Source: Bacteroidota bacterium
GTDB taxonomy: Bacteria > Bacteroidota > Bacteroidia > Chitinophagales > LD1
Direction of reading: 5' to 3'
Assembly: GCA_026391075.1 (NCBI GenBank)
Contig: JAPLES010000082.1
Coordinates: forward strand, 1 to 56,085
DNA: 56,085 nt
Shown: positions 2,286 through 54,381 of the stretch, in pieces
Layout: every line of letters starts with the position of its first letter
Numbering within the stretch: position 1 is the stretch's first letter
The notes under the pieces: generated by a model
What the model was told of the DNA's origin: nothing
Databases searched by the model: none
The model's input: only the letters and a program-made list of their open reading frames with translations
Made by a program: the position numbers and the translations under genes

Positions 2286-3587
2286 TTACTCCACATGCAA
2301 AACCAATCCTTTGAGGTAAAGCCCTTCGGGATTGAAAATGCTAACAGGATGGTCGGCCGGTTGTGTTAGATGATGGAGCACACGAATGTTTCTGCCTGAC
2401 TCAATAGCTGCAGAAGTAACTGCACCAATAAACATTTCTTGATTTACCACTTGCGAACAAGAAAACGTAAAAACAATTCCACCTGGTTTTATTTTCTTAA
2501 AAGCCGCAGCATTTAGTCGCGTGTAAGCTTGTATAGCATGGTGGCGAGCCGATTGAGCCTTGGCAAACGCTGGCGGGTCAAGCACAATTAAGTCGTACTG
2601 ATTATTCGAAGCTTTTATAAAATCAAATACATCTGCAGTAAATGCTTCGTGGCTACCACTGGTATTATTTAGTGTTATGTTTTGGTTTGTCCAGTCAATG
2701 GCTTTTATGCTACTGTCAACCGAGTGGACGAGCGTGGCTCCAGCTTTTAAAGCGTACACAGAAAATCCTCCGGAGTAACAAAAAGTATTAAGCACTGTTT
2801 TGCCATTTGCATAACGTGCTAACAGGTTTCTGTTATCGCGTTGATCAATGAAGAATCCAGTTTTTTGTCCGAGTACCCAATCAACACCAAAACGATGACT
2901 GTTTTCTAAAACTATCTTTTCTGATTCGCTACCAAATAAATATCCATCAGTCGATTTCTGAATTTTGAATTCTGAATTCTGAATTTCTTCTTCGGTCTTC
3001 TGACCTTCCTTTCCGGTAGGCAGGCTTCGGTCTTCTAATTTTTCACGTTCAGCATCAAATTTATGATTTAGTGTGGTAGCACTTTTATCATACACGGCTA
3101 ACAATCGTTCTTTATATCCTTCTTTTAAAACCTGAACAAAATTTTCCTTTTCGGCATTCATTCCTTTGCTATGGCATTGGATAACCGCTGTGCCGTTATA
3201 CCAATCTACAATCAAGCCCGGCATACCATCACCTTCGGCATTTATTAAGCGATAAGCGTTTGTAGTTTTGCTTTCTGTTAATCCTAAACTTCTTCGCAAA
3301 GTAAAAGCGGTTTTAAATTTTTCGCGCCATAAATCTTCCAAGGAATTTACTTTTTTAAAACTGAAAATGCGAGCGCTCACACTACCAGTACCAAAATGCC
3401 CTATGCCAAGAAATTCACCGTCTTCAGAAAGTATTTCCACTATGTCACCTTGATCAGGATTGCCGTTTTTGCTTTTCACCGCCCCCGAAAATATCCAAGG
3501 ATGAAAACGTTTTACCGCATGGGTTTTTCCGCGATGGAGAATAAGGGCAGGATATTTTTGTTGATGTGCACCGGGAGTTTCGTTCAT
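2286..3587 (-). CDS. Class I rRNA large-subunit methyltransferase, RlmI-like
   Basis: SAM-dependent RNA cytosine-C5 methyltransferase of the RlmI (YccW) type, acting on 23S rRNA in that family. An N-terminal PUA-like domain (about residues 12-85 of 433) precedes a Rossmann methyltransferase with TVLNTFCYSGGFS (SAM loop) and VLDPPAFAK (motif IV). An open frame extends to 3767, but the added 60 residues are atypical and occupy the divergent promoter region; 3587 (MNETPGAHQQ) is chosen. The protein is longer than the roughly 400-residue norm. The excess is a repeat-derived linker at about residues 184-211, between the N-terminal part and the methyltransferase core, encoded by GAATTCTGAATT-type repeats and a CCGGTAGGCAGG element. 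Confidence 0.9.
   Translation of the reverse strand: MNETPGAHQQKYPALILHRGKTHAVKRFHPWIFSGAVKSKNGNPDQGDIVEILSEDGEFLGIGHFGTGSVSARIFSFKKVNSLEDLWREKFKTAFTLRRSLGLTESKTTNAYRLINAEGDGMPGLIVDWYNGTAVIQCHSKGMNAEKENFVQVLKEGYKERLLAVYDKSATTLNHKFDAEREKLEDRSLPTGKEGQKTEEEIQNSEFKIQKSTDGYLFGSESEKIVLENSHRFGVDWVLGQKTGFFIDQRDNRNLLARYANGKTVLNTFCYSGGFSVYALKAGATLVHSVDSSIKAIDWTNQNITLNNTSGSHEAFTADVFDFIKASNNQYDLIVLDPPAFAKAQSARHHAIQAYTRLNAAAFKKIKPGGIVFTFSCSQVVNQEMFIGAVTSAAIESGRNIRVLHHLTQPADHPVSIFNPEGLYLKGLVLHVE
2956..3036. repeat. In-frame composite repeat inside the RlmI-like gene
   Basis: 2956-2985 is a tandem of TTCTGAATT words. 2990-3001 and 3025-3036 are identical 12-mers (CTTCGGTCTTCT) flanking a 23-bp segment that ends in CCGGTAGGCAGG. 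The reading frame stays open through all of it and encodes a polar linker rich in E, K and Q. Confidence 0.75.
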
Positions 3588-3765
3588 GTTCGTATGGTTG
3601 CGTTTTTTAAGAGCGCGATAAAAATATTGAAATGCTCCATACTGCAAATTGTGTTTTGCAAATGCATACAAAAAAACTGAACGTTCATAAACGGGTTGAA
3701 AACTTATATCCAAAAATGCCTTGCCGAAATTCAGTAGGCTTACTTTTATGCATAAATAATAACCC

Positions 3766-4116
3766 ATGAACTATATTCAACGCATATCAGACTGTATGGA
3801 AAAGGAAGCAGAAAATGTTGCTTTCCTCTCTTACTTTACAACTGCTAAACTGGAGCAGAAACTTTTATTGGTGCGTAATCAAATTGAAATAGCCACTCGT
3901 CATGAACAACGCGATGCGCTTTCGCTTTTACAACTTTGGGGGAAACAAATTACTGATGCGCAAGAATTAAAAAAGTTGTTGAAGCCAGAGGAGAATCCTT
4001 TACTCGATATGAATATGGAATTGCCAGAAATAATGGCCTTTGAATTACTTCAAAACAGACAGGAGCTATTGAAAAACAAACTGCTCAAAGAGGAAATGGT
4101 AAAAGAGAAATTTTAA
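3766..4116 (+). CDS. Hypothetical helical cytoplasmic protein
   Basis: A 116-residue protein with no signal peptide or membrane segment. It is rich in Leu, Glu, Lys and Gln and looks almost entirely alpha-helical, with likely coiled-coil segments (residues 25-70 and 85-115). I do not recognise the family. It is transcribed divergently from the RlmI-like gene across 178 bp and ends at a strong bidirectional hairpin, so it is probably monocistronic. Codon use resembles its neighbours and the start (ATG after AACCC) is the only reasonable one. No function is proposed. Confidence 0.7.
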   Translation: MNYIQRISDCMEKEAENVAFLSYFTTAKLEQKLLLVRNQIEIATRHEQRDALSLLQLWGKQITDAQELKKLLKPEENPLLDMNMELPEIMAFELLQNRQELLKNKLLKEEMVKEKF

Positions 4117-10558: not shown

Positions 10559-10576
10559 TTGCAGACGCTAGATGTT

Positions 10577-10657
10577 AGATTTTAGACGATAGACAACAGC
10601 CGCACTTTGTAAGTCAAATCCTCAGGTCTAACATCTGTTGTCTAATATCTAAAATCT
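10577..10657. repeat. Inverted repeat of TTAGATTTTAGAC family between convergent genes
   Basis: A 23-bp arm at 10577-10599 and its inverse at 10635-10657 agree at 20 positions, so transcripts from either side could fold into a long hairpin. The right arm lies inside the phosphatase gene and encodes its last residues. It probably acts as a transcription end for both genes. Confidence 0.75.
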
Positions 10658-11096
10658 TATCCGTTGCTTTATCCAGCATTTCATAAACTTCTTCATAATG
10701 CTTTTCGCTGAGTCCCCATGGGTCGGGAACGGCTTGGTTCATATCCTGATTTACTTCGTTCATGATTAAATGCACCTTCGAAATTTCCTGTTCGCTCTTC
10801 GCCATGTCGGTTACATCTTTATAGTTGCTGCTATCCATTACATAGATAATATCAAAGTGCTCTAAATCTTTTCTGCGCAACGGGCGACTGCGTTGATACG
10901 TAATATCAATGTCGTGTTCCTTCATCACTTTGATTGATTTTTCGTTCGGCAATTCACCTTCGTGCCAATCGCTTGTACCTGCAGAATCAATTTCCCAATC
11001 TAAATTTTTGAGCTCAGCTTTATGTTTCAGCAAACCATGTGCAATAGGAGAACGACAAATGTTTCCGAGACAAACGAACAGAATTTTTAAAGGCAT
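10614..11096 (-). CDS. Low-molecular-weight protein-tyrosine phosphatase
   Basis: Removes phosphate from phosphotyrosine or small phosphoesters via a cysteinyl intermediate. The P-loop CLGNICRS is at residues 9-16 (nucleophile Cys9, Arg15), and the general acid Asp is in VPDPWG (Asp125). All catalytic residues are present and the length (160) is normal. The last 14 residues (KILDIRQQMLDLRI) are encoded by a TTAGATTTTAGAC-type repeat, so the tail is probably repeat-derived and not ancestral. The gene is the second of a minus-strand pair 13 bp after the VOC gene. Role in the cell is not evident. Confidence 0.92.
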   Translation of the reverse strand: MPLKILFVCLGNICRSPIAHGLLKHKAELKNLDWEIDSAGTSDWHEGELPNEKSIKVMKEHDIDITYQRSRPLRRKDLEHFDIIYVMDSSNYKDVTDMAKSEQEISKVHLIMNEVNQDMNQAVPDPWGLSEKHYEEVYEMLDKATDKILDIRQQMLDLRI

Positions 11097-34101: not shown

Positions 34102-34204
34102 AGATTGATAAATGATTATTGGTGATTGATTAGTAAAATGCAGACACTTAAGAAACGAAAGTTGGTTTTTAAATTCTGCATTCCGAATTCCGAATTCTGC
34201 ATTC
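34102..34204. repeat. Intergenic composite repeat (ATTGATAA and GAATTC families)
   Basis: 34102-34121 is identical over 20 bp to 52971-52990. A TTCTGCATTC direct repeat (34174-34183 and 34195-34204) brackets CGAATTC words; the last copy overlaps the stop codon of the DUF4249 gene. No gene fits here. Confidence 0.75.
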
Positions 34205-37630: not shown

Positions 37631-38431
37631 TTAGAAACTTATTTTCTCTAAACCTTGACCTGCAGCAAGCAACTCGGCAATGTCAAACACTTTTACCTCC
37701 TGTTGTTTATCTTTCGATTTTACTCCATCGGTCAACATGGTGTTGCAGAAAGGACAAGCCGCTGCAACAATACTTGCTTCTGTTTCGAATGCTTCTTCGG
37801 TACGAGCTATATTGATTCTCTTCTTGCCGGGCTCGTCTTCTTTAAACATTTGAGCACCTCCTGCCCCGCAACACAAACCTTTGGTGCGGCAGCTTTTCAT
37901 TTCCACTAATTCGGCATCCAGTTCTTCGAGCACTTTGCGCGGTGCTTCGTAAATTTCATTGGCTCTTCCCAAGTAACACGAGTCGTGATAAGTGATTTTC
38001 TTTCCTTTGAACGAAGCAGCATCCGTAATTTTTATTCTTCCATCATCTATCAAATGTTGCAGATAAGTAGAGTGGTGAATTACTTCATAGTTACCACCAA
38101 GCGAAGGGTATTCGTTTTTCAAAATATTGAAGCAGTGCGGACAAGTGGTTACAATTTTCTTGACTCCGTAATTGTTCATTACTTCAACATTCTGCAACGC
38201 CAGCATTTGAAAAACAAATTCGTTGCCTGCACGTTTTGCCGGGTCACCCGTGCAACTTTCTTCGGTGCCAAGCACAGCAAATTTTATATTGAGGTGGTTA
38301 AGGATTTTCACAAACGAGCGCGTTACTTTTTGCGCGCGCTGATCAAAACTTCCTGCACATCCCACCCAAAAAAGAACTTCGGGGGTTTCATTGTTAGAGG
38401 CGTATTCTGCGTAAGTCTTAACTTGTAACAT
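37631..38431 (-). CDS. HdrB-like (CCG-domain) Fe-S protein
   Basis: A 266-residue cytoplasmic protein with two CCG domains. The first has FWVGCAGSFD, EESCTGDPAKR and TTCPHCFN; the second has DSCYLGRAN, LCCGAGGAQ and AACPFCNTML. Such domains bind a non-cubane 4Fe-4S cluster in HdrB, or an ordinary one in GlcF-type proteins. The partner is the HdrC-like membrane protein at 38857. The pair probably passes electrons between a soluble donor and the quinone pool; this is inference. The start codon directly abuts the repeat that closes the inserted four-helix-bundle cassette. Confidence 0.9.
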   Translation of the reverse strand: MLQVKTYAEYASNNETPEVLFWVGCAGSFDQRAQKVTRSFVKILNHLNIKFAVLGTEESCTGDPAKRAGNEFVFQMLALQNVEVMNNYGVKKIVTTCPHCFNILKNEYPSLGGNYEVIHHSTYLQHLIDDGRIKITDAASFKGKKITYHDSCYLGRANEIYEAPRKVLEELDAELVEMKSCRTKGLCCGAGGAQMFKEDEPGKKRINIARTEEAFETEASIVAAACPFCNTMLTDGVKSKDKQQEVKVFDIAELLAAGQGLEKISF

Positions 38432-38436
38432 TTATT

Positions 38437-38453
38437 ATTGATTGTTGATTATT
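38437..38453 (+). repeat. Left arm of 17-bp inverted repeat around the four-helix-bundle gene
   Basis: ATTGATTGTTGATTATT, perfect inverse of 38828-38844. It overlaps the last codons of the four-helix-bundle gene, starting six bases from the hdrB-like ATG. Confidence 0.85.
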
Positions 38454-38814
38454 GATTATTCCTAGTTCGCGTTTGAATGGTTTTTCTAGAGGCAAGAAAA
38501 ATACTGACTAACTGTTGCGCTTCCTTTCTCAATTCACTAACCTGTTTTTGCTTTAATAATTTTTCATCTACTTCAAATTCAATCCAGAAATCTGATTCGT
38601 CAGCTTCTTCTATAACTATACTCAACTTGGCTGTGAAAGCAGCTTTTGAATGAGCCAAACATACTGCCCGATAATTTGCGGCTACTGATGTAGAACATCG
38701 AATCAATTGTCCTGAAATATGTCTCCCCAATTTATTTTCGGGTAGAGTGCCTGCCGCTTTGATACAACGGTGAGCAAACTGTTTTGTTCTTCGTTTTAGT
38801 TCATTGCTATCCAT
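38449..38814 (-). CDS. Four-helix-bundle protein (S23/IVP family)
   Basis: A 121-residue protein of the four-helix-bundle family known from intervening sequences of bacterial 23S rRNA genes, and related to the accessory Avd protein of diversity-generating retroelements. Signs are the amphipathic helices, FAHRCIKAAGTLP, GRHISGQLIRCSTSVAANYRAVCLAHSK (the SGQLxRxxTSVxANYxEA-type core), and IVIEEADESDFWIE. It breaks the hdrC-hdrB gene pair and is bracketed by an inverted repeat. The last three residues (NNQ) are encoded by the left repeat. Function is not known; nucleic-acid binding is suspected. Confidence 0.88.
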   Translation of the reverse strand: MDSNELKRRTKQFAHRCIKAAGTLPENKLGRHISGQLIRCSTSVAANYRAVCLAHSKAAFTAKLSIVIEEADESDFWIEFEVDEKLLKQKQVSELRKEAQQLVSIFLASRKTIQTRTRNNQ

Positions 38815-38827
38815 TCTCCCGCATTTT

Positions 38828-38844
38828 AATAATCAACAATCAAT
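38828..38844 (-). repeat. Right arm of 17-bp inverted repeat around the four-helix-bundle gene
   Basis: AATAATCAACAATCAAT, perfect inverse of 38437-38453. It lies between the four-helix-bundle start (38814) and the stop of the hdrC-like gene (38857). Confidence 0.85.
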
Positions 38845-38856
38845 TATCAATCACTT

Positions 38857-40179
38857 TCACTCCTTCGCCCAATTCAATCTGTCCTGCTGACTAAACTGCC
38901 AAGGCGCACCATTGTTTTCCATGGCGGTAAACATTCCGTTCCACTCAGCCGGAGCGTTTGATTCTTCCATTATTAAGTTTCTGCGCAGTTGCACAATAAT
39001 GTCGAGCGGAGAAATCATTACCGGACATTCTTCCACACAGGCATTGCAGGTGGTGCATGCACGCAATTCTTCTACACTGATGTAATTGTTCTCAATCAAA
39101 CTCTTGCCATCATCTTTCCAAACGCCATTGTTTTCAGCCACAATACTTCCTACTTGTTCCAAGCGGTCGCGGGTGTCCATCATTATTTTTCGTGGAGAAA
39201 GAAGTTTGCCGGTTTGATTGGCCGGGCAAGCTGAAGTGCACCTTCCGCATTCGGTGCAGGTATAAGCATCCAACAAGTTTTTCCAACTCAAATCAAAAAC
39301 ATCTTTAGCTCCAAATTTTACCGGGGCAGCATTTGCATCAACAGGTGGTGGAGTAGCACTTGGATCCATCATCAACTTAATCTCCTTTGTTATTTCGGGC
39401 ATGTTGCTGATGTAGCCTTTCGGATTTAACCGAGCAAAATAAACATTGAAGAACGCGAGAATTATGTGCAGGTGTTTTGAATACGGCAGGTAAACAAGAA
39501 GTGCCAACACACCTACCATGTGACCCCACCAACCTAGACGTTCAACATAATGCAACGCGGTATAATCCCATCCGGAAAATAAATGCATGAGCATTCCACT
39601 CACTGCAAATCCATATTCACCGTGGTGCATAGCCATATCAGCTGTGTTCATACTGAAAATGCAGATGAGCAAATAAATTTCGGAAAGAAGAATGGTGGCC
39701 GCATCCTGAACCGGAAAACCTTTTAACTCAGGTTTGTTGAGGCGTGGCACTTTGATTAAAAATCTACGGCAAAGAAAAGCAACGGTGGCAATGAAAACGA
39801 AAATGGAAACTATTTCAATAAACGAAATAGTGGACACGTAAATGAAACGAAGTGCAGCAATATTTTCTACCGCATGAAAAATAATGCGGTGTGTACCAAG
39901 CACGCCATCGATAAAAATTTCAATCAATTCAATTTGTGTAACAATGAAACCGAAGTAAATAAAGAAGTGCAGTACAGCCGGAGTCATGTTCTTGAACATT
40001 TTCTTTTGTCCAAAGGCAACAAGCAGAACATTCTTGATACGCTCCGATTGATGATCGCTCAGATCTTCTTTTTTGCCGAGCATAATGTTTTTGTAAACTC
40101 TTCGATAACCCCGGTAAGCATAGAAAGCTGCCATGGTGGTGAAAGAGATAAAGAGAAAAATTTGAAAGTATGTTATCAT
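38857..40179 (-). CDS. HdrC/GlpC-like membrane Fe-S protein
   Basis: A 440-residue protein. Five to six membrane helices in residues 1-265 resemble a NarI-like quinone-interacting membrane domain. Two 4Fe-4S motifs follow: CTECGRCTSACP (308-319) and CTTCNACVEECP (375-386). It probably transfers electrons between the quinone pool and the HdrB-like protein. The start at 40179 (MITYFQIFLF) is used; an in-frame ATG at 40233 would add 18 non-hydrophobic residues over the promoter. The electron donor is not in the window; the acyl-CoA dehydrogenase at 53086 is not linked. Confidence 0.88.
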   Translation of the reverse strand: MITYFQIFLFISFTTMAAFYAYRGYRRVYKNIMLGKKEDLSDHQSERIKNVLLVAFGQKKMFKNMTPAVLHFFIYFGFIVTQIELIEIFIDGVLGTHRIIFHAVENIAALRFIYVSTISFIEIVSIFVFIATVAFLCRRFLIKVPRLNKPELKGFPVQDAATILLSEIYLLICIFSMNTADMAMHHGEYGFAVSGMLMHLFSGWDYTALHYVERLGWWGHMVGVLALLVYLPYSKHLHIILAFFNVYFARLNPKGYISNMPEITKEIKLMMDPSATPPPVDANAAPVKFGAKDVFDLSWKNLLDAYTCTECGRCTSACPANQTGKLLSPRKIMMDTRDRLEQVGSIVAENNGVWKDDGKSLIENNYISVEELRACTTCNACVEECPVMISPLDIIVQLRRNLIMEESNAPAEWNGMFTAMENNGAPWQFSQQDRLNWAKE

Positions 40180-40197
40180 AAAATTTTGTGAGCGGTA

Positions 40198-40205
40198 CGA
40201 AAATA
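40198..40205 (-). promoter_or_regulatory. -7 element TATTTTCG before the HdrC-like gene
   Basis: Minus-strand TATTTTCG (one change from TAnnTTTG) lies 18 bp before the ATG at 40179. No good -33 box is seen. Confidence 0.4.
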
Positions 40206-40296
40206 GAAAAGCCGTTGGAAGTTTTGAATACAAGCAACACCTAGCTCAAAAAAAACAAAAACCATTTTGAATAAAATATCTGTGCCATCAAACAAA

Positions 40297-41984: not shown

Positions 41985-42284
41985 GATGTTTGTTTTTTGT
42001 TTACCTACTCGTGTTCCAGCTTTTCGGTTTCCGCTGTTTGTGCTTCTTATTCTGTTTTTTGCCGTTTCAAGTTTCGTTTCAACCTGCCTATTGAACAGGT
42101 AATAACTTGTTAGATAAAACACAATGCGTGTATTTTAAGAGAAGTGGTGCATTATGTAGTCGAAAACTTAAGAATTGAACAGGATAAGGAATCGCAATTG
42201 CACGATATAAGGTTCACGCACTAACAGAAGTTAGGACTCGTTACGAGCGGTTGTAAAAGCTAAACCGAAATTTTATAGACAGAT
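41985..42284. other. Intergenic region with palindromes, 300 bp
   Basis: No gene fits. It holds a perfect 11-base palindrome CTCGTTACGAG (42237-42247), a CGGTT/AACCG pair just after it (near 42248-42267), and an ACCTG/CAGGT hairpin near 42080-42100. Their roles are unclear; the last might affect expression of the T9SS gene that starts at 41984. Confidence 0.5.
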
Positions 42285-52690: not shown

Positions 52691-52972
52691 ATGAATTTTT
52701 CTTTTCAAACAGACCGCCAACAACAAATTGAATTAGAAGAGGAGATTGCATTAGAACATAAATTGATTTTGCATAACGACAACTTCAACACGTTTGAGTG
52801 GGTGATTGAAACCCTGGTGGATGTATGTAAACACAATCTTGTGCAGGCGGAACAATGTTCGCTTTTGATTCACAACAAAGGGAAATATGCTGTGCAACAC
52901 GGTCCTTTTGAGATGCTGAAACAGATGAAAGACGAAATTACTGAGCGGGGAATAAATGCCACTATTGAATAG
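52691..52972 (+). CDS. clpS: ATP-dependent Clp protease adaptor ClpS
   Basis: A 93-residue N-degron adaptor for ClpA/ClpC. The binding core HNDNFNTFEWVIETL carries the Asn/Asp residues that recognise N-terminal hydrophobic residues, and HNKGKYAVQHGPFEMLKQMKDEI is the typical second half. The N-terminus is a short flexible arm. The stop codon runs into the 20-bp repeat shared with 34102-34121. Confidence 0.92.
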   Translation: MNFSFQTDRQQQIELEEEIALEHKLILHNDNFNTFEWVIETLVDVCKHNLVQAEQCSLLIHNKGKYAVQHGPFEMLKQMKDEITERGINATIE

Positions 52973-53024
52973 ATTGATAAATGATTATTGATTGTTAAAC
53001 AACCAAAGACAATCAATCATAGTA
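52971..53024. repeat. ATTGATAA/ATTGATTGTT intergenic repeat with hairpin
   Basis: 52971-52990 is identical to 34102-34121. ATTGATTGT (52987-52995) pairs with ACAATCAAT (53009-53017). It is the same word family as the 17-bp inverted repeat around the four-helix-bundle gene, and probably serves as the clpS terminator. Confidence 0.75.
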
Positions 53025-53085: not shown

Positions 53086-54381
53086 ATGGGACAATACTTT
53101 AACGAAGACCACGAAATGTTTCGCCAAACGGTGAGGGATTTTGTGCAGAAAGAAGTTGCTCCCTTCATTAATAAATGGGAGGAAGAAGAAAAAATTCCTC
53201 GCGAAATATTTTTACGCATGGGCGAACTTGGTTTGCTCGGTATTAACTTTCCGGAAGAATATGGTGGCACTAACAACGATTTTTGGCACACAGTAGTTTA
53301 TCTCGAAGAACTAGCTAACAATACCTGTGCAGGTTATGCAGGTGCGGTAAGTGTTCATCAATTCATGGCCACTAATCATATTCTTTTAGCAGGAAGTCCT
53401 GAACTGAAAGAAAAATATTTGCGTCCTTCTATTGAAGGAAAATTTGTTGGAGCAATTGCCATTAGCGAGCCGGGTGCAGGAAGCGATGTAGCTGCTCTAC
53501 GTTGCACTGCAAAACGCGAAGGCGATTACTACATTATCAACGGTAACAAAACTTTTATCACCAATGGTGTTTACGGAAACTTCGTAACCGTTGCTTGTAA
53601 AACAGACCCTGCTGCCGGTTTGGCCGGAGTGAGTTTAATCGTAGTTGACCAAGGCACACCGGGTTTTACCACTAACAAATTGAAGAAGATGGGTTGGAAA
53701 AGTTCTGACACCGGTGAATTGTTTTTTGACAATGTAAAAGTTCCTGTTTCGAATCTTGTGGGAAAAGAAGGACAAGGATTTTTCTACATCATGGAAAGTT
53801 TTCAGTTGGAAAGATTAGTGGCTGCCATTATGGGAGTAGCAGGTTGCGAAAGAGGAATTGATTACACGCTTAAATATATGCACGAGCGCAGTGTGTTTGG
53901 TAAGCCGATTGAAAAATATCAAGTGCTTCGCCATAAAATGGCAGATATGATTACCGAGGTGGAAATCACCAAGCGCTTTGTTTACTATTGTTGCGATTTA
54001 TTTTCGAAAGGAATTTTTGCAGTGAAAGAATGTAGTATGGCAAAGATGAAAGCTACTGAACTAGGCAAACGTGTTGCCGATGAATGTTTGCAGATGTTTG
54101 GTGGCTACGGCTATATGAGCGAGTATCCGATTGAACGCGGTTACCGCGATGCACGAGTGGGAACAATTGTAGGTGGCACTACCGAAATTATGAAGGAGAT
54201 AATTTCGAAAATTGTAATTGACGGAGCGAATTATGAAAGTGCTTATAAGAACATGAAGGCGCAATCAGCGGAAAACGCAGAATCTAAATCAGAAATCAGA
54301 AATCAGAAAATACAGGCGCGGCTGTTTCAACCGGAAACTCGAAACCCGCAACTGCAAACTCAAACAATATTTCTTCACTAA
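53086..54381 (+). CDS. Acyl-CoA dehydrogenase
   Basis: FAD-dependent alpha,beta-dehydrogenation of acyl-CoA (short/medium/branched-chain type). Motifs are AISEPGAGSDVAALRCTA (FAD/substrate loop), FITNGVYGNF, MMGVAG-type core segments and the C-terminal QMFGGYGYMSEYPIERGYRDARVGTIVGGTTEIMKE, where the family's conserved glycines and Arg are seen. The enzyme body ends about residue 395. The remaining 36 residues (SEIRNQK, PETRNPQLQTQT) are translated repeats, so the protein is longer (431) than the usual 380-390. The SCP2 gene follows 14 bp later, likely co-transcribed. Confidence 0.93.
   Translation: MGQYFNEDHEMFRQTVRDFVQKEVAPFINKWEEEEKIPREIFLRMGELGLLGINFPEEYGGTNNDFWHTVVYLEELANNTCAGYAGAVSVHQFMATNHILLAGSPELKEKYLRPSIEGKFVGAIAISEPGAGSDVAALRCTAKREGDYYIINGNKTFITNGVYGNFVTVACKTDPAAGLAGVSLIVVDQGTPGFTTNKLKKMGWKSSDTGELFFDNVKVPVSNLVGKEGQGFFYIMESFQLERLVAAIMGVAGCERGIDYTLKYMHERSVFGKPIEKYQVLRHKMADMITEVEITKRFVYYCCDLFSKGIFAVKECSMAKMKATELGKRVADECLQMFGGYGYMSEYPIERGYRDARVGTIVGGTTEIMKEIISKIVIDGANYESAYKNMKAQSAENAESKSEIRNQKIQARLFQPETRNPQLQTQTIFLH
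54286..54366 (+). repeat. In-frame repeats forming the acyl-CoA dehydrogenase tail
   Basis: 54286-54310 is a tandem of AAATCAG words and 54334-54366 a tandem of GAAACTCGAAACCCGCAACTGC-like words. Both are inside the reading frame and both belong to word families seen elsewhere in the window. Confidence 0.7.

Follow-up and report, generated by a model that had tools for sequence, protein, structure and literature searches.

Inverted heptamer arrays frame a four-helix-bundle gene at an hdrC-hdrB-like junction of a Bacteroidota bacterium: a probable representative of a widespread group of miniature mobile cassettes

The window analyzed here, a stretch of 56,085 nucleotides, carries an hdrC-like and an hdrB-like gene with a gene for a four-helix-bundle protein of the S23/IVP family between them (Table 1). 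The original prediction placed a perfect 17-bp inverted repeat around this gene, and both parts of that statement hold: positions 38437-38453 (ATTGATTGTTGATTATT) are the exact reverse complement of 38828-38844, and the 121-aa open reading frame (ORF; 38449-38814, minus strand) matches PF05635 (9.6e-12, 45.5 bits, cut-off 33.8) and TIGR02436 (1.5e-19, 70.2 bits, cut-off 24). Likewise, a profile built from 18 relatives matched the solved S23 proteins 2gsc (7e-28) and 2rld (4.2e-26). The repeat pair extends to 38430-38453 and 38828-38851 (24 nt, 92%, 374 nt apart), and its arms are short TTGATNN arrays, the 3' one of which is in contact with the four-helix stop codon as well as with the hdrB-like start. 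On the minus strand, 38857 is the last position of the hdrC-like ORF and 38431 the first of the hdrB-like ORF, so that the cassette fills the junction, and the gene indeed sits exactly between the stop of one neighbor and the start of the other.

Table 1. Features of the cassette junction and gene-less arrays in the window
Feature	Position	Strand	Remarks
Short-loop pair of inverted arrays without a gene, L001 cassette word	10566..10660	.	between convergent ORFs
Weak gene-less array, word of the window cassette	34103..34135	.	
hdrB-like CCG-domain protein, downstream neighbor	37631..38431	-	ORF and profile matches
3' arm, TTGATNN word inverted	38430..38460	-	extends to the hdrB-like start codon
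Four-helix-bundle (S23 / 23S rRNA-IVP) gene, 121 aa	38449..38814	-	stop codon within the 3' arm
5' arm, period-7 word TTGATNN (coding strand)	38828..38851	-	inverted-repeat comparison
hdrC-like 4Fe-4S protein, upstream neighbor	38857..40233	-	ORF and profile matches; true start uncertain
Weak gene-less array/hairpin, word of the window cassette	52972..53018	.	between a presumably clpS-like and an acyl-CoA dehydrogenase-like ORF
Gene-less array, word of the L003 cassette	54286..54309	.	in the 3' end of an acyl-CoA dehydrogenase-like ORF

Between the arms of the window cassette the four-helix ORF is the only one of at least 60 aa, and no transposase or recombinase is encoded there. An S23p ORF bounded by complementary ends is the arrangement of the rRNA intervening sequences (IVS). 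Here, however, the unit is flanked by two protein genes and does not lie inside an rRNA gene, the Rfam matches of the window including no rRNA. The sole Rfam match is a DUF805b cis-regulatory RNA (42002-42037, minus strand, 37.7 bits), and a search of the window for tRNA and tmRNA found none. A defense-system or phage-family identity was rejected: PADLOC gave no match for the two proteins tried, and of three proteins compared with PHROG only L001 matched (PHROG 3206, Avd, 4.8e-5), the window protein giving none. Phage records matching the L009 protein numbered 2 of 50,697.

Twelve PF05635 matches occur in the genome, which comprises 3.6 Mb in 91 contigs; each is flanked by word arrays, and the word differs between copies. 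When upstream flanks were compared with the reverse complements of downstream flanks in a home-made local alignment, which provides all arm-matching scores given here, the own flank pair was best in both row and column for 12 of 12 genes, with an own-arm mean of 21.5, a swapped mean of 8.4 and a swapped maximum of 13. The weakest own pair (L006) scored 11, under that maximum, and did not rank first in the larger set. One repeat common to all four-helix genes of the genome is therefore rejected, since swapped arms do not match. Taken literally, the repeat of the window is unrelated to those of the other copies, the outcome that would have spoken against the original prediction; yet in each copy the own flanks match best. 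The window repeat is not a product of chance: 447,495 bases of this genome contained 18 inverted repeats scoring at least 18 and one first-order Markov reshuffle contained 0. Nine of these repeats had loops of more than 350 nt; eight were PF05635 cassettes and one was a different repeated element, two of the ten cassettes within this sample having fallen under the threshold.

This behavior is not confined to one genome. In the genus and order set (101 match rows, reduced to 97 cassettes by merging four split genes and to 95 by leaving one out and losing one with a short flank), the 95 copies from 18 genomes had an own-arm median of 16 versus 8.5 for swapped arms, and 48 own pairs ranked first alone in their row where about 1 was expected, copies within one genome family not being independent. 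For 10 of the 95, at least 19 swapped arms equaled or beat the own arm, so that some copies show no arms. In a phylum sample of 392 genomes the gene occurs in at least 300, with at least 10 to 11 copies in some, and the 30 top matches had an own-arm median of 13.5 versus 8.5, with 13 first alone.

Beyond the phylum, we followed one protein subfamily, SVAANYRAAC (alignment A2, seven proteins). The best 80 of 580 relatives were kept and gave 78 loci, L267 and L294 being left out for short flanks; among these best matches are loci from Acidobacteria, Planctomycetes, Verrucomicrobia, Chloroflexi, Proteobacteria, candidate phyla, a Fischerella cyanobacterium and others. The own-arm median was 21.0 versus 9.0 for swapped arms, and the own arm came first alone in 31 of 78 loci (about 1 expected), or in 30 of 66 when Bacteroidota, Chlorobi and Ignavibacteria were removed. 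Swapped arms match somewhat in this subfamily because its words share a core. Indeed, arms aligned across phyla with a mean of 8.35. Shuffled arms reached 5.60, reverse-strand alignments 5.49 and alignments with arms of the 30-locus phylum set 5.62; the score filters were passed by 69 of 78 subfamily arms and 14 of 30 phylum-set arms. Period 7 was found in 54 of the 69 subfamily arms, with words often sharing the core GATTNNN. At 25 loci selected for their ATT chains, the preceding base was G in 84% and the following base G or T in 98%, giving GATT[GT]NN, a comparison of core and spacer that favors the core since ATT chains defined it. Among cassettes of the genus and order set that lie at different junctions, pairs with proteins more than 60% identical had an arm match of 10.85, with 8 of 32 at 13 or more, whereas pairs 20 to 30% identical had 8.65, with 1 of 1562 at that level.

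The number of cores per arm deserves separate consideration. The aligned arms of the SVAANYRAAC subfamily have a median length of 32 nt (70 arms), which would accommodate five cores of four bases separated by four spacers of three. Exact ATT chains with a spacing of 7 in the 5' arm had two members or fewer in 36 of 69 loci; the other 33 comprised 6 with three, 5 with four, 20 with five, 1 with seven and 1 with eight. When any three-base core was accepted (n = 70), 28 subfamily arms had five, 19 had four and 14 had three. The genus and order set was less sharp (56 arms; 14 with three, 16 with four, 14 with five), and gene-less arrays peak at four cores (22 of 45), the number of units that the GGGNATC repeats of Xanthomonas are reported to favor (PMC4692102). 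S23 protein is a pentamer where solved, and for Xanthomonas a homopentameric S23p is described (PMC4990558; reference title in PMC10053308). Since five cores per arm are commonest in the subfamily, we propose one core per subunit simply as an attractive hypothesis, five being the mode and not the rule.

The original prediction suggested a comparison of the hdrC-hdrB junction in relatives. The hdrB-like gene is found in 17 of 18 same-genus genomes, and both neighbors are readable in 16, of which 5 have the cassette and 11 do not, the empty spacers measuring about 18 to 120 nt. The G004 spacer was not counted as a cassette remnant because it resembles another repeated intergenic element, the TTATCTGTGTAATCATTGCGAAGCATAA type seen in several inverted copies at 19230-19863 of L151. 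The five hdr-junction proteins form one clade (100/100). Between G000 and G024, the flanks of this junction are 91% identical on both sides and the gene 75%; in its words G000 is close to G005 and G008, and G024 to G009, in parallel with the gene tree. At the L003 junction, G000 and G004 are 94 to 95% identical in the flanks and 96% in the gene, and in 31 of 32 junction-orthologous pairs the identity of the gene lies within 0.10 of that of a flank. Inheritance at a junction is therefore mostly vertical.

Genome G011 has two cassettes on one contig, with proteins 92% identical and unrelated flanks. Their homology begins at the 5' array and spans the gene, such that the duplication includes the array. 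In one of the two, an additional 61-aa ORF (L047, 4075-4260) follows the four-helix gene and precedes the 3' array, and copy 1 is antisense to both neighbors. On neighbor assignments taken from the longest open frames, some of which are mis-assigned, 85 of the 97 cassettes have an assignment on both sides, and 71 of these run in the same direction as both neighbors. In the tree, junction groups other than hdr also tend to cluster, and one 11-row clade spans several different junctions.

Plasmids provided a second filled and empty pair. Our survey comprised 49 record rows, of which 15 were examined and 13 compared for arms; the own arm pair was best at 8 of the 13 loci, three of the 13 being the same Planktothrix cassette. 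On a Nostoc edaphicum plasmid a cassette with five TCCCTAC/G words in its 3' arm lies antisense between nrdB and nrdA, and in Calothrix NIES-4105 the annotated nrdB and nrdA are separated by 40 nt with the cassette absent, the flanks being 86 to 88% identical to those of Nostoc edaphicum. Thus, filled and empty sites bounded by terminal repeats, as in transposable elements, exist both at the hdr junction (5 of 16) and at nrdB-nrdA. Either insertion or precise loss could produce them; nrdB-nrdA shows no clear target-site duplication, and the hdr empty sites are too diverged to read for one. A plasmid pair from Calothrix brevissima was rejected as evidence of movement because the neighborhood is common on both sides. 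The Nostoc HK-01 plasmid copy has no arms above background, and the word of Chlorohelix p2 is common to Gloeocapsa and Planktothrix loci. Planktothrix cassettes at L344 (1220-1480 and 1835-2005) lie within nested arrays of GATTTAC, GATTGGG and GATTTTG words that run in both directions. Four plasmid cassettes lie inside annotated defense operons: L340 (csx2-cas1), L345 (drmD-mmeI), L346 (drmD-pglX) and L349 (cas6-cas4).

Some of these data might also be explained by site-specific homing, in which each protein lineage belongs to a single junction and returns to it in relatives by gene conversion or homing instead of transposing freely. The single clade of the five hdr copies, the clustering of other junction groups and the G000-G024 discordance of gene and flanks, in which the words agree with the gene tree, are consistent with this. 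However, the 11-row clade occupies several different junctions, the two proteins of 92% identity in G011 lie at separate sites, and most junction pairs look vertical, all of which makes homing unlikely as the general explanation.

The two arms of a cassette change together. At the 25 ATT-chain loci, spacer bases agree between the arms in 84% versus 37% if they were independent, and at orthologous junctions own arms beat species-swapped arms in 29 of 35 pairs (means of 17.2 and 14.3; pairs not independent). For instance, at a junction whose neighbors we take to be homogentisate dioxygenase-like and HPPD-like, the arms differ jointly, reading GTGTTAACG / CTTAACAC in G008 and GTGTTCAGG / CCTGAACAC in G011. 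Likewise, three Planktothrix plasmids have identical genes, and one of them differs in the number and kind of heptamers in both arrays.

Such coupling could reflect pairing in RNA. Possibly, the cassette is a resident regulatory module, that is, a normal operon gene whose arms pair as a stem in the RNA, thereby insulating or processing the message and allowing the protein to control its own transcript, and stay paired through selection on the RNA. The predominance of co-directional cassettes and the mostly vertical inheritance fit this idea, as does the cutting of rRNA IVS by RNase III (PMC4990558), and the predicted transcript fold does pair the arms (z -2.85; 0 of 100 shuffles as stable). 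On the other hand, G-U-compatible mismatches between arms are in no clear excess over A-C mismatches (58 versus 56 in 62 arms; 73 versus 54 in the cross-phylum set; pooled p 0.20). Pairing in RNA is therefore possible, selection for it is not evident, and RNA-stem selection as the sole cause is unsupported by these counts. Given also that antisense cassettes exist (nrdB-nrdA, G011 copy 1) and that 11 of 16 relatives lack the cassette at the hdr junction, we regard a resident regulatory module as improbable.

Word arrays also occur without the gene. The same 447 kb contained 34 arrays of period 6 to 10 (25 of period 7 and 6 of period 8; one near poly-A) and 0 in a shuffle, and 22 of the 31 arrays of period 7 or 8 have no PF05635 gene within 350 nt. 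Across 19 genomes (80 to 447 kb each), the density of gene-less arrays correlated with the number of PF05635 genes (Spearman 0.73, p 0.0004, relatedness uncorrected). Nine genomes with 0 or 1 gene had 0.45, 0, 0, 0, 0, 0, 3.75, 0 and 0 gene-less arrays per 100 kb, and ten with at least 10 to 12 genes had 4.9, 2, 1, 2, 4, 7.5, 0, 2.5, 1.25 and 1.25; the exceptions are the gene-poor G026, which has arrays, and the gene-rich G089, which has none in its sample. G002, of the same genus and without a PF05635 gene, had one array in 222 kb, and six zero-copy genomes together had 1 period-7/8 array in 682 kb. This set leaves out the zero-copy G031 and excludes other periods, e.g., 37 period-9 arrays in G158.

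Gene-less arrays resemble the cassette words of their own genome. The 21 de novo arrays of G000 (one near poly-A left out) had a mean best match of 13.38 to the 12 cassettes of that genome. Among 200 draws of 12 cassettes per comparison, order and phylum draws gave means of 10.91 and 10.04 and maxima of 12.07 and 10.76, reaching 13.38 in 0 of 200 each, and same-genus draws reached it in 9 of 200, so that gene-less arrays are not uniquely matched to their own cassettes. Two arrays in the window, near 34102 and 52971, had originally been taken for empty or decayed sites. They do carry the window word without a gene, with likeness scores of 15.0 (order relatives 12.2, phylum sample 9.7) and 17.5 (order relatives 12.8, phylum sample 10.1), both being weak and under the de novo array threshold. 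However, none of the 97 cassettes collected from 19 genomes sits at either junction, and we do not retain the empty-site reading; the acyl-CoA dehydrogenase matches in this junction comparison are paralogues of 31 to 33% identity. Heptamer arrays also run in frame within coding ORFs, at 2953-2985 (EEIQNSEFKIQKS in ORF 2286-3767) and 54286-54309 (KSEIRNQK). The notion that intergenic arrays are slippage hot spots in which the four-helix gene inserts or persists draws on the heptamer simple repeats ascribed to slippage in several bacteria (PMC4692102), on the frequency of gene-less arrays and on the Planktothrix plasmids of one species, whose words vary around an identical gene, but is very unlikely given that slippage alone yields no matched inverted partner 370 to 490 nt distant, that eight of nine long-loop pairs are PF05635 cassettes, that the word core tracks the protein subfamily across phyla and that arrays are scarce in zero-copy genomes.

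Among known systems, the rRNA IVS with S23p, described as parasitic elements excised by RNase III, come closest in that, in Leptospira and Coxiella as in our cassettes, an S23/IVP ORF lies within a unit with complementary ends (PMC4990558). The Coxiella IVS, 428 nt long, has a terminal stem of 28 bp and encodes S23p, which is preceded by a degenerate heptamer and two or three tandem ones, their number varying by strain; the passages of that paper available to us do not extend this arrangement beyond rRNA (PMC4990558). Unlike the rRNA IVS, the present cassettes occupy junctions of protein genes, are many per genome, vary in their words by copy and are accompanied by gene-less arrays. REP/RAYT systems and MITEs combine a gene-bearing unit framed by inverted repeats with many gene-less units per genome, and the genomes studied here similarly hold both. 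Unlike in those systems, however, the protein is a four-helix bundle with no known nuclease or transposase domain, and the arms are heptamer arrays with letters differing between cassettes. Avd of the diversity-generating retroelements belongs to a related fold family (PMC10053308), as reflected in the PHROG match of L001 and not of the window protein; unlike in those retroelements, none of the three ORFs of the hdr junction contains a reverse transcriptase domain. Finally, the intergenic repeats TAACTGA (PMC4679880) and GGGNATC (PMC4692102) share the period of 7, often lie between aligned ORFs and form 70 inverted pairs in Xanthomonas campestris, but as described there they are tied to no gene family, whereas the present arrays frame or accompany PF05635 genes. 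Within the literature covered (titles, abstract openings and passages, with subscription papers outside this scope), we found no link between PF05635 and inverted heptamer arms outside rRNA.

In conclusion, the feature is real and general: own arms match, the word core follows the protein subfamily across phyla and the word always points the same way relative to the gene. A junction either has or lacks the cassette as a unit that ends at the arms, and one was duplicated with its array. The original idea of a small mobile unit without a transposase gains support from the presence and absence at the hdr junction, the discordance of cassette and flanks between G000 and G024, the array-including duplication, the filled and empty nrdB-nrdA pair and the linkage of word and subfamily across phyla. 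Our preferred reading of the unit is a mobile cassette of the IVS type that lies in protein-gene junctions and ends at its arms, and we consider it probable, with some reserve, that it belongs to a widespread miniature mobile class made up of an S23-type four-helix gene and two inverted heptamer or octamer arms.

The arms are the probable ligand of the cassette protein. In other words, the protein may bind its own word array, with about one core per subunit, and might bring the ends together, either at the DNA level or, as for the rRNA IVS, in the transcript. Such pairing could allow a host enzyme, or an enzyme acting in trans, to copy or move the unit, of which the gene-less arrays may be non-autonomous derivatives. 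Both arms would be renewed together through slippage and arm-to-arm copying and would stay matched while the word drifts. Conceivably, a tight stop-start gap between co-directional genes makes insertion nearly harmless. On this reading, the cassette corresponds, at junctions of protein genes, to the intervening sequence of 23S rRNA.

A bolder version, which we hold only tentatively, would be a pan-bacterial transposable class in which a pentameric protein reads five-word arms, one core per subunit, with a lineage-specific code word, and which would be the source of many intergenic heptamer repeats (Bacteroidota, cyanobacteria, possibly Xanthomonas) and of the rRNA IVS. To our knowledge, no function is known for the S23/IVP proteins, whose fold is solved, and descriptions of intergenic heptamer repeats have so far named no agent; joining the two gives both a testable role. 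The own arms as predicted ligand, and five cores for five subunits, make a sharp prediction. A mobile class of this kind may also bear on the PF05635 genes noted in cas loci (PMC3936711; figure legend in PMC10910872), and the rRNA intervening sequences would be one insertion context of a general element.
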